Source of the DNA: Paludibacteraceae bacterium
Lineage (GTDB): Bacteria > Bacteroidota > Bacteroidia > Bacteroidales > Paludibacteraceae
Length of the DNA: 64,000 nt
NCBI GenBank assembly: GCA_017451525.1
Contig: JAFTOD010000005.1
Span: forward strand, 457,266-521,265
Reading direction: 5' to 3'
Part shown: piece by piece, positions 7,523 through 48,437 of the stretch
Numbering within the stretch: the stretch's first letter is position 1
How the letters are laid out: each line of letters opens with the position of its first letter
The notes under the pieces: model-generated
The model's database searches: none
What the model was told of the DNA's origin: nothing
Seen by the model: the letters and a program-made list of their open reading frames with translations, nothing else
Program-made: the position numbers and the translations under genes

Positions 7523-7554
7523 TTTGCAAATCCGCAAATTTTGTTGTACCTTTG
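7523..7554 (+). promoter_or_regulatory. Promoter of the structured leader and BspA-like gene
   Basis: TTTG at 7523-7526 and TACCTTTG at 7547-7554 are spaced exactly 20 nt apart. The predicted start is near 7560, right at the 5' hairpin of the structured RNA that follows. Confidence 0.8.
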
Positions 7555-7560
7555 TCCCCG

Positions 7561-7780
7561 ATTCGGTAAAGCGTTACCCATCACTACATATTTTATATAG
7601 CGTTATAAGCCCAGACTTGATTTTCTGAAAACTGGACACTTTCAAGAAATCAAACAACTCAAGTACGGTTTATGCACGCTCACGTTATCAGCGTGAGTTT
7701 TCCGTGCGTAGATTTGAGTTGTTTAGGTAGTCCAGAACCTCAGAAAATCAAATTGAAGCGAACGAAAGCGCACGCTTTTT
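7561..7780 (+). ncRNA. Structured RNA, copy 1 (leader of the BspA-like gene)
   Basis: About 220 nt of nested helices follow the promoter. P1 pairs 7565-7569 with 7574-7578. P2 pairs 7617-7628 with 7740-7751 (12 bp, perfect). P3 pairs 7632-7637 with 7730-7735, P4 7652-7662 with 7714-7724 (11 bp), P5 7663-7668 with 7702-7707, and P6 7679-7684 with 7692-7697. The tail AAGCG/CGCTT (7756-7777) plus a T-run resembles a terminator. A second copy at 46822-47033 (minus) keeps the loops and the tail but changes the helices with compensating bases. P5 holds a U-G pair that is valid only for the plus-strand transcript. The BspA-like ATG is 54 nt downstream. It could be a cis-regulatory leader or an independent small RNA. 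I do not recognise it as a known family. Confidence 0.72.
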
Positions 7781-7833
7781 CTGTCTATATACCAATAAAT
7801 AACAATAATACTAACAATTAAAATTCAATCAAC

Positions 7834-10800
7834 ATGAAAAAGATTTTATCTACAATCATTTCCTCCCCTCTAAAAGGGAGATTATGTGGGCTCCTCTTCG
7901 CCCTCCTCGCCACTACCACCCTCTGGGCGTATGACTTCCAATCTGGTGATCTCTACTACAACATCACCAGCAGTTCCGTACCTTATACTGTAGAGGTAAG
8001 TGATGCTGTATCATCTATCACCACTGCCACCATCCCAGAAACCGTTATCTACAACGGTACTACCTACAGCGTAACGAGCATTGGATTTATTGCTTTCTCT
8101 GGTTGCTCCTCCCTTACCTCCATCACCATCCCTAATAGCGTTACGAGTATTAGAGCTATGGCTTTCTATGGTTGCTCCTCCCTCACATCTATCACTATTC
8201 CTGACAGCGTAACGAGCATTGAATATGATGCTTTCTATGGTTGCTCCTCCCTCACCTCTATTACCATCCCCGAAAACGTAACGAGTATTGGATATAATGC
8301 TTTCTTGTATTGTATTTTCGCAAAAGAAAACTTTATCAACAATAGTGTATTAGATGCAGAAGAAAATAATTATTGGGGCGCAACAATAGTGGATACTGAA
8401 ATAGATGGGCTAATCATTCGAAACGACACGGTGATAGACTGTAGAAAACATGTAACCTCTGTGATTATCCCCGAAGGCGTAACGAGTATTGGAGATGATG
8501 CTTTCTATTATTGCTCCTCCCTCACCTCAGTCACTATCCCCAATAGCGTTAAGAGCATTGGAAGTTGGGCTTTTGAGTATTGCTCCTCTCTCACCTCCAT
8601 CACCATCCCTGAAAGCGTAACGAGCATTGGAGATTATGCTTTTGATGATTGTATATTTGTAAAAGAAAACTTTGTCAACAATAGTGTATTAGATGCAGAA
8701 GAAAATAATTATTGGGGCGCATCAATAGGGGACACTGAAATAGATGGACTACTCATCCGAAACGACACGGTGATAGATTGTAGAAGATATGTAACATCTG
8801 CGATTATTCCTGAAGGCGTGACGAGCATTGGAGATAGGGCTTTCTATGAATGCTCCTCCCTCACCTCCATCACTATCCCTAACAGCGTAACGAGCATTGG
8901 AGGTTCTGCTTTCTCGTGGTGCTCCTCCCTCACCTCAGTCGCCATCCCCAATAGCGTTACAAGCATTGGAGGTAGTGCTTTCTCTCATTGCTCCTCTCTC
9001 ACCTCCATTACCATCCCTAACAGCGTAACGAGCATCGGAAATGATGCTTTCTATGGATGTTCTTCTCTTGTACAAACTAATTATACAGGCGATATAGCAA
9101 GTTGGTGTAATATTAAATTAGGTAATCGTTATGCCAATCCAATATCATATTCACACAACTTCTATATCAACGATGTAGAAATAAAAGATTTGGTTATTCC
9201 TAACTCTGTGGATAGTATTCATAATTATGCTTTCGTTCGTTGCTCTTCGTTGACCTCCGTCACTATCCCTAACAGCGTAACGAGCATTGGAGATTATGCT
9301 TTCTCTTATTGCTCCTCCCTCACCTCTGTTACTATCCCTAACAGCGTAACGAGCATTGGAAATTATGCTTTCTATGGTTGCTCCTCCCTCACTGCTCCTG
9401 TTTACAATGCACATTGTTTTGCGTATATGCCCACTTCATATTCTAGCGCATATACAATTCCTGAAGGGATAAAACAGATTGCGGGTGCTGCTTTCTATGG
9501 TTGCTCTTCCCTCACCTCCGTCACAATCCCTAACAGCGTAACGAGTATTGGAGATTATGCTTTCTATGATTGCTCCTCCCTCACCTCTGTCACCATCCCA
9601 GAAAACGTAACGAGCATTGGAAGTAGTGCGTTCTCTGGTTGCTCCTCCCTCACCTTCATTAATCTACCATATAATATACCTGTAGCAAAGCAATCATCAT
9701 TTGATAACTCACATTTTGAAAAAGTCAAGCTTTATGTTCCTTTTGAAGCCTATGAGGCGTATAAAGTAGATAATGTATGGAGCAAATTTAAGAATATTCT
9801 ATATATTGATAACTTTTACGCCAATAATATACGTTATAGGTATATGGCAGAAGAAAACATACTGTCAATGTCTCTCTTAGTGGAAGAAAATTTCAATCAA
9901 TTCACATCAATATCGATTATTGGTAGTCAAGATTGGCATTATAATAGTAAATATGGAGCCTACATGAGTGGTTACCAAAATAATATAAACAATCCCAACG
10001 AAGATTGGTTGATATCTCCAGCAATGGATTTATCCAAACATTCAACTGTAACGCTTGAATTCTCACATGCTTTTGGTCCAGCAGCATCCGTTCCAACAAC
10101 CGCTACGCAAAAAGCACAATACACCTGTTGGATATCCAATGACTTTAATGGGGATGTTACTACTGCCACTTGGACTGAATTGCCCATAACATATGGCACC
10201 AGCGCATGGGATTTTATCACTACGACTGTAAATATACCCACAGAGAATCTAAAAGAAAATTGCCATATCGCATGGAAATATGTTTGTGATGATGAATCTG
10301 CAACTTGGGAAATTAATAATATCGAAGTTGCTGGAATACTTACAAAACCAGCCGTTGAAGTAATTGCTAAGTATGATAACTATTCTAATGACGTTGTCAT
10401 ACCATCGGTAGTTACACACAATTATGCAGACTATAATGTAGAAGCCATCGCTGCTAATGCTTTCTCCTCTTGCTCTTCCCTCACCTCTATCACCATCCCC
10501 AACAGTGTAACGAGTATTGGGAAATGGGCATTTGAAAATTGCACTTCGCTCAACGAGATTACACTACCTGCTTCTGTAAAATCAATTGATGAAGAGGCCT
10601 TTGCAGGTTGCACCAAGTTGTATGACATCTACTGCTTTGCAATGGAACCACCTACAGCATATGAATCCTCGTTTGCCAACTACAATGCCTTTTTGCATGT
10701 ACCATGCGACAACCAACGCGTATATCTCTTGGATGTAATCTTTGGCAATTTCAAATACATTGAGTGTATTGAAGCAGAAACCACTCCTACTGACACCGTT

Positions 10801-11460
10801 GTTGTTACTCCATCCTTCAACGATGCAGAGTTTATCTGGCCAAGCAATAGTTCTGCCGATAGTTATACCCTCGCTATCAGCAAAGATGGTGAAATATTCT
10901 GTACCCTAACTTTCAATGCCAATGGTCAATTGACAGGCATTGCCTTTGCACCTTCGCGCAATGGTCAGCACAATGCCCCTGCTGCTGCGCAAACGGCTAA
11001 TGGCTTTGCTTTCACTGTTACTGGATTGGATGAGGGTGCTAACTACACCTATGAACTGCTTATCCAAGACAGAAGTGGCAACACCCTGCAATCTTATTCT
11101 GGCGAGTTCCGCACACAGAGCACCAACGACCGCACCGTCACAGTAGAATACGACGCTGCGCAAGGTCAAGTCACTGGTGCAGGCACTTATCTCGTAGGTG
11201 ATACCGTTACCCTTACAGCTACTCCTAACGACGGCTATCGTTTTGTCCGTTGGAGCAACGAGGTTGAGGATAACCCTTACACCTTTGTCATTTCAGACAA
11301 CGTGACACTCTCTGCTGAGTTCGAGGAGGTTATAAGTACCTCTGTAGAAAACACTTCTCCATCTCAGCAATCTGACACCCACAAACTCCTTCGCGACGGT
11401 CAACTCCTCATCCTTCGCGATGGCAAGACATACAACATCATGGGCGCAGAAATCAAATAA
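7834..11460 (+). CDS. BspA-like leucine-rich repeat surface protein with T9SS-type tail
   Basis: This 1208-aa protein has a signal peptide, then many TpLRR/BspA-type repeats of about 23 residues (LTSITIPNSVTSIG..AF..CSS). An adhesin-like jelly-roll region (about 680-830, with WLISPAMDLS) follows. Then come a few more LRRs, a fibronectin-like stretch, and an InlB-B-like repeat near the C-terminus (VGDTVTLTATPNDGYRFVRW). The last residues (LLILRDGKTYNIMGAEIK) resemble a T9SS sorting tail, so the protein is probably exported by the PorKLMN system encoded in this window. BspA-type proteins mediate adhesion. A segment of about 55 codons containing VLDAEENNYWGA occurs twice (DNA from about 8325 and 8670), nearly identical. 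The signal peptide contains an unusual SSPLKGR insert encoded by a palindrome at 7863-7880. Confidence 0.92.
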   Translation: MKKILSTIISSPLKGRLCGLLFALLATTTLWAYDFQSGDLYYNITSSSVPYTVEVSDAVSSITTATIPETVIYNGTTYSVTSIGFIAFSGCSSLTSITIPNSVTSIRAMAFYGCSSLTSITIPDSVTSIEYDAFYGCSSLTSITIPENVTSIGYNAFLYCIFAKENFINNSVLDAEENNYWGATIVDTEIDGLIIRNDTVIDCRKHVTSVIIPEGVTSIGDDAFYYCSSLTSVTIPNSVKSIGSWAFEYCSSLTSITIPESVTSIGDYAFDDCIFVKENFVNNSVLDAEENNYWGASIGDTEIDGLLIRNDTVIDCRRYVTSAIIPEGVTSIGDRAFYECSSLTSITIPNSVTSIGGSAFSWCSSLTSVAIPNSVTSIGGSAFSHCSSLTSITIPNSVTSIGNDAFYGCSSLVQTNYTGDIASWCNIKLGNRYANPISYSHNFYINDVEIKDLVIPNSVDSIHNYAFVRCSSLTSVTIPNSVTSIGDYAFSYCSSLTSVTIPNSVTSIGNYAFYGCSSLTAPVYNAHCFAYMPTSYSSAYTIPEGIKQIAGAAFYGCSSLTSVTIPNSVTSIGDYAFYDCSSLTSVTIPENVTSIGSSAFSGCSSLTFINLPYNIPVAKQSSFDNSHFEKVKLYVPFEAYEAYKVDNVWSKFKNILYIDNFYANNIRYRYMAEENILSMSLLVEENFNQFTSISIIGSQDWHYNSKYGAYMSGYQNNINNPNEDWLISPAMDLSKHSTVTLEFSHAFGPAASVPTTATQKAQYTCWISNDFNGDVTTATWTELPITYGTSAWDFITTTVNIPTENLKENCHIAWKYVCDDESATWEINNIEVAGILTKPAVEVIAKYDNYSNDVVIPSVVTHNYADYNVEAIAANAFSSCSSLTSITIPNSVTSIGKWAFENCTSLNEITLPASVKSIDEEAFAGCTKLYDIYCFAMEPPTAYESSFANYNAFLHVPCDNQRVYLLDVIFGNFKYIECIEAETTPTDTVVVTPSFNDAEFIWPSNSSADSYTLAISKDGEIFCTLTFNANGQLTGIAFAPSRNGQHNAPAAAQTANGFAFTVTGLDEGANYTYELLIQDRSGNTLQSYSGEFRTQSTNDRTVTVEYDAAQGQVTGAGTYLVGDTVTLTATPNDGYRFVRWSNEVEDNPYTFVISDNVTLSAEFEEVISTSVENTSPSQQSDTHKLLRDGQLLILRDGKTYNIMGAEIK

Positions 11461-46309: not shown

Positions 46310-46714
46310 TTATAAAATAGGATATTCTCCGTATTTATTATCATTCTGTTCTGATTCCTTAAGAAGTAATACCACTAAGATCAAACTTCCAATAGGAATC
46401 AGAACAAGTGCAAACCACCATCCATTTAACCCGATATCATGCAAACGTCGTATCGCAACGCAAACAGATGATAATAATAAGAGAATCTGACAAAGCGATA
46501 ATATAACCATCACGACTGCCAATAATGATTGAAAGATGCCATTATCAATAGAAGTTATTGCACTAATAGAGCAGGAAAAAACTACTAAAATTAGTGGTTG
46601 TACCAAATTAGTAAATAAAACATACCACCAATACTCAGAACGTGTTGCACGACCATTTGTTGTCATCATTTTCTCTAATAGACATGTTGAAATAGACTCG
46701 GTGAAGGACATCAT
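46310..46714 (-). CDS. DUF805 family membrane protein
   Basis: A 134-aa protein with the DUF805 hallmarks: NGRATRSEYWWYVLF near the start, IRRLHDIGLNGWWFALVLIP, and a final NKYGEYP. It has four hydrophobic helices. Function unknown; DUF805 genes are common in accessory regions. A copy of the structured RNA ends 108 nt upstream on the same strand. Confidence 0.9.
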   Translation of the reverse strand: MMSFTESISTCLLEKMMTTNGRATRSEYWWYVLFTNLVQPLILVVFSCSISAITSIDNGIFQSLLAVVMVILSLCQILLLLSSVCVAIRRLHDIGLNGWWFALVLIPIGSLILVVLLLKESEQNDNKYGEYPIL

Positions 46715-46821
46715 AATAATTAAAATTAAATATTCAGCCTACTCTTTTACGGATTTTCAGCATACTCCGTTGGTTAATTGTTTGATTTATTTTATATTAA
46801 TTAGATTGCTTATACTCATAT

Positions 46822-47033
46822 AAAAAGCGTGAACTTTCGTTCGCTTCATTTGAGTTATTGAGGTCTTCGACTACCTAAAGCATTCAAAATCTGCACAAAA
46901 GCCCACGCCAAAAGCGTGAGCGTTCATAGGCTGTGCTTGAATGCTTAATAGTCTTGAAAGTGTCGAAGTTTCAATAACTCAAGTTTGGCTTATAACGCTA
47001 TATTAAATATGTAGTGCATCGCCTTTACGATGC
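46822..47033 (-). ncRNA. Structured RNA, copy 2 (upstream of DUF805)
   Basis: This is the same fold as 7561-7780, read on the minus strand. P1 pairs 47028-47033 with 47016-47021. P2 pairs 46971-46982 with 46850-46861 (12 bp), P3 46962-46968 with 46865-46871, P4 46937-46946 with 46878-46887, P5 46932-46936 with 46893-46897, and P6 46915-46921 with 46901-46907. P6 needs a U-G pair that exists only in the minus-strand transcript. Loop blocks such as ACACTTTCAAGA, TTTAGGTAGTC and GAAGCGAACGAAAG are shared with copy 1, while the helix bases are different. No clear promoter precedes it; it may be transcribed from the sce7726 operon. Confidence 0.7.
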
Positions 47034-47432: not shown

Positions 47433-48437
47433 TTACTCTTCTATGATTACTTTATTGATTCTATGGATTTGCACATCATCTTGACATTCAAAATTAGACG
47501 GATCAAATATTACATAATTTACTCCCGTGTCATATAATGAACTGCCGAATGCAATTCCTTTTGCATCTGCTACATATTTAATATATTCACAAATAAACTG
47601 AGTTGGTACATAATCAACAACAGAGTCATGCCTTCTCATAGGTCGAGATAAATCTTCACTGATTTCTTTGGCTATAAATTCACTTATAATACCACTTTGC
47701 ACTCCTGATTCTGAATAAATAGTATCAAAAGGACTACCATATTTAGTGAAGTCTACAATCTTAATATCATCTAATGCCTTAAAGACTCCAGTACTGACAT
47801 TATCCAAATAAACCGCTCTTATTTCATAGAATGTAGTCTCAACATTATTACTTAAGTATAAAAATGCTATGCCTTGCGGATTTGCTCGTCCTGCCGTTGC
47901 AACTTTTTGAGGTGGTGCAGACATTTCATCCTTTTTGAAAGGAATCTCACTATTTTTATCATTTATACGAGAACGATAAAGTATAGTATCTCTGTTTATG
48001 GTAGAGGCATGTACGGCAAATGCTTCGTTGTAGTAGGTCTCGTTTTTCCAATCCCGAATAGAAAGATAACGATATTTATTAATTAAATTATCTTTCAACA
48101 TATTCCAATCTCGCACAGCGTGTTTTATTTTGTCAGAATAATCAACCGAAGTATCAAGGGTCAATGCACTTTCCCTCTCTTTGAGAAGTGCATCAAAAAT
48201 TATACGACCATATTGTTCATTAAAGATATTCCAATCCCGCTGAATTTTACTATAAAAAGGCACACCTTCATTTGACTCTACAAATGACGATATGAAACTA
48301 TCGAAGGAATCAGACAAATCTACTGTATCTATAACTTTCGTTTCTTCGTTTGTCACATCACAAATGCCATCTACACCATTTTGACGGATATACAATATGA
48401 GGGATGGGTCATTAAAACATTTCTCGCATATTTTCAT
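47433..48437 (-). CDS. RES-domain protein with zinc-ribbon/HEPN-like N-terminus
   Basis: A 334-aa protein. An N-terminal Cys pair (CEKCFND) and helical region (about 1-150) resemble the HEPN/RES N-terminal domain. The C-terminal RES domain (about 165-330) has LYRSRI (Arg), AGRANPQGIAFLYLSNN, TTFYEIRA (Glu), YVPTQFICEYIK and FGSSLYD (Ser), the residues that name the family. RES domains of toxin-antitoxin systems degrade NAD+. Its start overlaps the sce7725-type stop (ATGA), so the two are coupled. No Xre-type antitoxin is adjacent, which argues for a role inside a larger system. Confidence 0.82.
   Translation of the reverse strand: MKICEKCFNDPSLILYIRQNGVDGICDVTNEETKVIDTVDLSDSFDSFISSFVESNEGVPFYSKIQRDWNIFNEQYGRIIFDALLKERESALTLDTSVDYSDKIKHAVRDWNMLKDNLINKYRYLSIRDWKNETYYNEAFAVHASTINRDTILYRSRINDKNSEIPFKKDEMSAPPQKVATAGRANPQGIAFLYLSNNVETTFYEIRAVYLDNVSTGVFKALDDIKIVDFTKYGSPFDTIYSESGVQSGIISEFIAKEISEDLSRPMRRHDSVVDYVPTQFICEYIKYVADAKGIAFGSSLYDTGVNYVIFDPSNFECQDDVQIHRINKVIIEE

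Follow-up and report, generated by a model that had tools for sequence, protein, structure and literature searches.

The c-di-GMP riboswitches (GEMM) are multi-copy cis elements that precede diverse surface genes. The element described here is like them in being multi-copy, in its apparent action in cis and in its association with diverse surface genes, whereas its size and fold are different and the riboswitches have no minimal ORF. Within the same phylum, the FopS/GibS small RNAs of Bacteroides are likewise multi-copy and tied to surface functions; in the account given of them (PMC11697453), however, they act in trans, with a single-stranded 5' stretch carrying a seed and a terminator hairpin, while the element is predicted to be a closed leader acting in cis. 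The uORF leaders known as the ilvB and fthC motifs are described as having a conserved start and an in-frame stop upstream of the main gene, beside RNA helices, as in the element, but each of these motifs serves one gene, with regulatory codons in the case of ilvB (PMC11109978), whereas the ORF of the element is mostly one to four arbitrary codons and its targets are diverse secreted proteins. Closest in anatomy are the ribosome shunt leaders of plant pararetroviruses, as portrayed in PMC5902531: in RTBV and RTSV a short uORF comes to its stop 7-8 nt ahead of the basal helix of a large closed structure and, as in the element, an A/U-rich stretch lies behind the structure and before the main start. 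These leaders differ in serving eukaryotic scanning ribosomes and in uORFs that span 6-7 codons in RTBV and RTSV (PMC5902531); the likeness is an analogy of anatomy only. Set beside these systems, the element is most probably a structured leader with a minimal ORF, and it matches no Rfam 15 family.

The window, by which we mean the whole stretch of 64,000 nucleotides that was analysed, contains two copies of this one structured RNA, confirmed at the positions where an earlier note on this DNA had placed them. Their parts and neighbours are as follows.

7523..7554, + strand: promoter of copy 1, TTTG at 7523-7526 and TACCTTTG at 7547-7554, with a spacing of 20 nt
7560..7582, + strand: 5' hairpin of copy 1 in the computed fold, GGTAA (7565-7569) with TTACC (7574-7578)
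7580..7781, + strand: core leader RNA, copy 1; 194.9 bits with the second covariance model, which includes the copy itself
7599..7603, + strand: inner closing stem, 5' strand AGCGT, which can pair with 7772-7776
7617-7628/7740-7751, + strand: P2, copy 1
7632-7637/7730-7735, + strand: P3, copy 1
7652-7663/7713-7724, + strand: P4, copy 1
7678-7686/7690-7698, + strand: P5, copy 1
7772..7776, + strand: inner closing stem, 3' strand ACGCT, with a U-run directly behind
7834..11460, + strand: gene behind copy 1, a secreted BspA-type leucine-rich-repeat protein of 1208 aa with choice-of-anchor J and an InlB-like repeat
46310..46714, - strand: gene behind copy 2, a DUF805 protein of 134 aa (PF05656, E 1.1e-26)
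46736..46770, - strand: DUF805b RNA (RF02914), located between copy 2 and the DUF805 gene; 43.1 bits, the family's gathering score being 35.6
46821..47018, - strand: core leader RNA, copy 2; 193.0 bits with the second covariance model, which includes the copy itself
47016..47033, - strand: 5' hairpin of copy 2 in the computed fold, GCATCG with CGATGC

The bit scores of the two copies are high by construction, both being part of the model. Each copy nevertheless folds far better than its own shuffles, with z of -6.9 for copy 1 and -6.3 for copy 2 and none of 200 shuffles as good in either case. Copy 1 had been described as lying between a promoter and a BspA-like surface gene, and both neighbours were recovered: the gene carries PF13306 (E 1.5e-156), together with PF18998 (8.8e-15) and NF038128 (8.8e-10), and the promoter is present as sequence, its TTTG and TACCTTTG standing 20 nt apart in what we take to be the Bacteroidetes consensus. 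Among 115 copies, TAnnTTTG occurs within 120 nt upstream in 41, compared with 3.4 expected from shuffles. The 5' hairpin of copy 1, which by eye has a GAT...ATC extension, sits at the predicted transcript start directly behind the promoter, a site taken by the minimal ORF in most order-level copies; no ATG is found within this hairpin region (7560..7582). A hairpin resembling that of copy 2 sits inside a short upstream ORF in one relative (L053). Upstream of copy 2, on the same strand, lies a gene for a RES-domain protein (47433-48437; PF08808, E 2.1e-11), which we take to be possibly part of a toxin-antitoxin pair.

The comparative evidence for the fold comes from two covariance models, the first built from six copies of the genome to which the window belongs and the second from 50 copies of that and related genomes. 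In the 50-copy alignment, which was fitted to the first model with the same structure and therefore favours that structure, 94.5% of 2352 cells are paired, against 73.4% in shuffles and 32-45% with slid partners; two-sided changes occur at 41 of 49 pairs, and the covariation score is 0.598, against 0.212 in shuffles and 0.06-0.11 with slid partners. A partner-swap test, which makes no comparison of aligned columns, was applied to 91 non-redundant copies drawn from 110 (five of the 115 having been dropped), and gave mean energies for own and swapped partners of -12.7 and -3.8 kcal/mol in P2, -9.1 and -5.2 in P3, and -11.3 and -2.8 in P4. The contention that P2, P3, P4 and P5 change on both strands with pairing kept, made from two copies, is thereby extended to further homologues by the alignment, with which the swaps of P2, P3 and P4 agree. 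The coding-strand orientation read from a single U-G pair also proves right, since G-U pairs outnumber A-C mismatches by 229 to 21 in the 50-copy alignment, which identifies the functional molecule as RNA of that orientation. The comparison shows a closed multi-helix RNA of about 170-220 nt, present in multiple copies.

Conserved internal-loop sequences (GAAA..TTTC and AGGT..ACCT) flank the variable helices, and alternative pairings can be drawn. One of these, designated X:Y, is sequence-specific (-6.78 own vs -3.73 swapped), as is the 5' flank in the analysis of the GAAA/TTTC and AGG/CCT pairings. The AGG/CCT flank, in which GGG/CCC and TGGT/ACCA variants occur, is not sequence-specific by mean run length (3.71 own vs 3.74 swapped). 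All three pairings (X:Y, GAAA/TTTC and AGG/CCT) are compatible with a second state and with a fixed fold alike.

Some sequences of the same genome resemble only part of the element. Near position 1501 of three further loci (L007, L009 and L010), short 5' modules with a like hairpin and ACATATTTAATATAGCGTTAT continue into a simple hairpin and T-run in place of P2-P5, and these may be truncated remnants or a short form of the element. At another locus (L008:1501-1800) a like 5' hairpin and promoter introduce an RNA with otherwise very different helices that by eye keeps the stacked-helix plan, possibly a far relative.

The comparison of both copies with Rfam that the earlier note had proposed was carried out, and no family matches the element. 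In a cmscan of the window no Rfam 15 family reached its gathering score on the element, and when the two copies were scanned with the threshold relaxed to E 10, only weak unrelated matches fell on the element (best E 1.4 and 3.1). In the window and in 37 distinct loci scanned against Rfam 15, the latter comprising 18 related loci (mostly order-level) and 20 from the own genome, genus and order, with one common to both lists and two being the window's own copies, only tRNA and DUF805b were matched, neither of them on the element. The DUF805b match beside copy 2 is a 35-nt neighbour with no overlap. This RNA (RF02914, clan CL00115), a cis-regulatory RNA in Rfam, lies between element and gene in three of the six strong copies of the own genome, and differs in its length of 35 nt and in being a separate match outside the element. 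It was found in 11 of the 20 loci of the own genome, genus and order, most of which were picked as likely carriers, and GRGTAGG, part of its sequence, lies within 160 nt downstream in 28 of 215 copies, with 1.7 expected. A serial arrangement of the element and DUF805b is frequent and is not confined to the genes of DUF805 proteins. Absence from known families is here as judged by Rfam 15; the GUCCY-hairpin and Bacteroides-2 motifs, which appear without an Rfam number in a 2010 list (PMC2864571), lie outside its numbering. No description of the element was seen in the open-access journal literature searched, which included main text of PMC8040213, PMC11697453, PMC5902531, PMC11109978, PMC2864571 and PMC8632094; the supplement of PMC8040213 holds thousands of candidates, among which an overlapping earlier prediction is possible.

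A search of Bacteroidales genomes with the covariance model, likewise envisaged in the earlier note, revealed the family widely in the order and in the class. The own genome, represented by an assembly of 1.84 Mb that is 84% complete, contains 18 matches at E<=0.001, of which six are strong, and ten other genomes, picked for strong matches, give 5-27 matches each. At E<=1, matches occur in 34 of 37 genomes of the genus and in five of 24 from the rest of the order. A broader order sample, in which only six candidates were scored per genome, yielded matches at E<=0.01 in 154 of 393 genomes and 94 of 206 genera; the class sample yielded 63 of 295 genomes at E<=0.001, and the phylum sample 23 of 247, two of these outside the class. 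When named contigs were searched with an exact 18-base pattern, 75 of the 80 matches listed fit the covariance model, and the listed contigs bear titles including Paludibacteraceae, Alistipes, Muribaculaceae, Prevotella, Bacteroides, Odoribacter, Tannerellaceae and Dysgonamonadaceae; one titled Synergistales is probably misbinned. Copy 1 has no blastn match in plasmid or phage records, and only one of 14 viral contigs with the short pattern fits the covariance model.

The position of the element relative to genes is steady. Of 115 copies, 101 are followed within 330 nt by a co-directional ORF (median 74 nt), as are 92 of the 104 copies of a second, partly overlapping set (median 72.5 nt). By a crude rule, a signal-like or lipoprotein-like start was assigned to 84 of the 101 downstream ORFs of the first set, and a signal-like start to 80 of the 92 of the second, while under nearly the same rule the controls gave 18 of 53 for the genes of the window, 28 of 166 for those upstream of the element and 20 of 52 for those further downstream. 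The proteins are otherwise diverse: BspA repeats occur in 14 of 100 scanned, and Big_2, InlB-like repeats, C10 peptidases, OmpA and CsgG are represented. The 17 of 101 ORFs without a signal-like start include those of a glycosyltransferase, DUF805 and HSDR_N-like proteins, and three class-level copies lie ahead of DNA methyltransferase or restriction genes. These last (L347, L349 and L352) appear as a subfamily with CCCACGCAG or CCCACGCAG-like tails about 20 nt ahead of those genes. Two class-level copies precede SusC-like receptors, by 229 nt (L353) and 276 nt (L360), and three more downstream proteins resemble such receptors at the N terminus. In five class-level loci (L355, L356, L359, L360 and L361) GCYTATG with an early stop lies downstream of the element, with a SusC-like gene further on in three of the five; this combination is perhaps a separable leader module. 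By inspection, several relatives have the same downstream gene. One copy outside the window, near 286 kb of C4 in the own genome, is followed by a gene (L003:1767-3226) whose product looks secreted and combines a ubiquitin domain (PF00240, E 3.8e-17) with an InlB-like repeat.

The 3' end of copy 1 had been viewed as a terminator, and the sequence elements on which that view relied are indeed there: an AAGCG/CGCTT stem with a 12-nt loop, followed by a T-run. A pattern scan confined to loops of 3-8, and hence blind to this one, found no other terminator at the tail; on the strand of copy 2 only P5 itself fits the terminator pattern, a second site being on the other strand. The terminator role is unconfirmed, and is weakened by what the relatives display behind the U-run. 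In the window's genus the AAGCG/CGCTT stem shares bases with the inner closing stem, so that the two would be alternative pairings, while order-level copies, by inspection, have no AAGCG partner of the tail. The inner closing stem, in which AGCGT and ACGCT can pair and thereby close the element, has no covariation of its own because its strands are nearly constant across the family, and for the same reason the pairing of lead and tail is not sequence-specific (-8.15 own vs -8.69 swapped); the case for it comes from conservation and from a class-level change seen by eye, in which the A-U neighbouring the stem appears as U-A.

At the order level the closure would extend further. There the U-run can pair with an A-run adjoining AGCG/CGCU (96.6% paired, hardly varying), and behind the U-run a second, outer helix can be formed, for example by GATACGCGCAA with TTGTGCGTATC. 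Judged on 26 copies, most of them chosen because the match was long, pairing in the outer helix amounts to 94.6%, and nine of ten pairs have two-sided changes, including UA to CG in 12 copies at one position; in unselected order-level copies, runs of at least 7 occur in 39 of 97, compared with 18.7% after swapping. Within the window's genus no such signal was seen (10 of 95, compared with 11.6% for swapped partners). Order-level transcripts should extend past the U-run, given the covarying helix behind it; since no outer helix is seen in the genus of the window, the argument against a terminator in the window itself comes from relatives. In order-level copies such as L143 and L164, a 5' AAAAGC has two possible partners, a local GCTTTT and the 3' CGCTTTTT, the pairings being mutually exclusive. 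An ORF beginning at an ATG behind the U-run was considered and rejected, there being no frame signal (32, 26 and 25).

Upstream of the element, GCYTATG occurs in 90 of 216 regions, compared with 1.3 in shuffles, and introduces a minimal ORF consisting of AUG, up to four codons and a stop, as in AUG-GCA-UAA, AUG-AAA-UAA and AUG-GUA-UAG. This ORF is found in 73 of 88 order-level copies outside the window's genus (25 and 34 in the other frames) and in 45 of 127 inside it (9 and 15 in control frames). It is absent from both window copies and present in a minority of the copies of the genus, and is therefore not needed everywhere. If the sequence around the start is disregarded, 64 of 185 non-redundant copies contain ATG-NNN-stop, while the shifted frames give 11 and 15. 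All of 54 non-redundant starts have an in-frame stop within ten codons, 29 of them within one codon, and the earliest stop falls in frame 0 for 46 of the 54 (3 and 5 in frames 1 and 2; binomial p 5e-15, with ties counted as frame 0 and copies treated as independent). The second codon varies freely. An A-rich stretch stands at about -15 to -11 before the minimal AUG and the main start alike, and 48 of 94 copies have a promoter motif upstream of the minimal ORF, at a distance of 22-69 nt (median 31.5; 3.9 copies expected). Where the outer match is long, the distance from stop to outer helix has a median of 11 nt (range -7 to 46, n=31), and the minimal ORF accompanies 28 of 29 order-level copies with such a match and 45 of 59 without it (p=0.017). 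The local hairpin that would compete for the outer helix shows little specificity (run 5.06 own vs 4.40 swapped), and it is the weak point of the ribosome gate proposed below. As a general genomic motif the minimal ORF was rejected, the strict TTGCCTATGNNNTAA giving 14 matches in 11 whole genomes against 19 for the reversed pattern. The arrangement that marks uORF leaders, an in-frame start and stop at a conserved position, is thus found at the order level and not in the window copies, and that of shunt leaders, a uORF ending a few nucleotides before a basal helix, only in copies with a long outer match, again not in those of the window.

Sequence comparison shows, in sum, an element co-directional with genes of mostly predicted secreted proteins; in most order-level copies a start-stop ORF lies at the base of the element. 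That it is a cis-acting 5' leader of the downstream mRNA is, on these grounds, very probable. A fuller reading, in which a leader family of Bacteroidia, placed mainly before genes for secreted proteins, lipoproteins and outer-membrane proteins, is also a gate worked by a ribosome on the minimal ORF, is plausible though still a little short of probable. The leader would be transcribed from the promoter just upstream; a minimal ORF, presumably ancestral and often lost in the window's genus, would be where a ribosome starts and stops, covering the region just before the closing helix. Depending on its presence there, the closing helix's 5' strand would either stay in a local hairpin or join the 3' strand behind the U-run, and the efficiency of the main start codon would follow from the closed or open state of the domain. 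Closure or opening may be aided by a ligand or protein bound at the conserved internal loops. The free variation of the second codon points away from any particular amino acid as the cue, which would instead be initiation itself or occupancy by a ribosome.

Other explanations draw on some of the same features. A ligand-binding riboswitch, through which a small signal, perhaps a second messenger, would run a surface-protein regulon while the minimal ORF only loads or protects the mRNA, could account for the multiple copies ahead of very diverse surface genes, for the conserved GAAA..TTTC and AGGT..ACCT loops and for the specificity of alternative pairings such as X:Y; we consider it unlikely, since no clear expression platform was found in the element, no common pathway is seen among the downstream genes, and a riboswitch alone does not account for a start-stop ORF conserved in frame. 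The common feature of the targets is an envelope destination and not metabolism, which would equally suit a protein-binding tag on secretome mRNAs, directing their localization, their stability or their control by a global RNA-binding protein such as an RRM protein of the RbpB type. Bacteroides thetaiotaomicron is described as having a global RRM protein with a multi-copy RNA family, but the FopS RNAs of that account, with their single-stranded 5' stretch and terminator hairpin, are shaped otherwise (PMC11697453), and such a tag appears clearly unlikely to us.

The proposal of the earlier note, a terminator-type attenuator or an independent small RNA ending at the U-run, stands in so far as the RNA is structured and has no Rfam match, while both the terminator attenuator and the free small RNA have been weakened and now seem quite improbable. 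In the window's genus the AAGCG...CGCTT stem, with a 12-nt loop that falls outside the scanned range of 3-8, is followed by a U-run with no outer helix seen behind it. The tail has a further possible partner in the 3' strand of P5 (-14.0 kcal/mol own vs -12.6 swapped), and a possible new promoter lies behind 12 of 115 copies, compared with 6.9 expected. These points favour the proposal; it is opposed by the outer helix that covaries behind the U-run in order-level (mostly selected) copies, by the missing AAGCG partner in such copies on inspection, and by a steady direction and distance to the gene, a co-directional ORF in 101 of 115 copies at a median of 74 nt being more than a free small RNA would need. 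Finally, a selfish or mobile repeat of MITE-like character, its fold serving its own spread, might be read from the number of matches in 11 genomes (5-27 in each, ten of the genomes having been picked for strong matches), from several copies near contig ends in fragmented genomes and from the three possibly truncated 5' modules of the own genome. We regard this as highly improbable in view of the steady polarity before secreted-protein genes, the compensatory change between copies, the same downstream gene in several relatives on inspection, and the near absence of the element from the mobile records searched, namely no blastn match of copy 1 among plasmids or phages and a single fit among the 14 viral contigs.

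The gated leader that we prefer to these alternatives admits one more radical variant, suggested by the pararetroviral analogy, in which a ribosome on AUG and as little as one codon would rest against the base of the closed domain and be passed or released across it to the main start of a secreted-protein gene. We know of no case of ribosome shunt in bacterial leaders, and judge this variant distinctly improbable; if it were true, it would be categorically new, and envelope protein synthesis in many Bacteroidia would be gated by translation initiation itself. Irrespective of that variant, the element offers a clear case of an ORF reduced to a start, one or a few codons and a stop, and kept in frame, which would suggest that the signal is the starting and stopping of the ribosome and not the peptide. 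Bacteroidia are a major group of gut bacteria. If the role as a leader is true, a single RNA family, absent from Rfam 15, is the common mark of a group of secreted and surface proteins in many of them, and the coordination of envelope proteins in Bacteroidia becomes testable.
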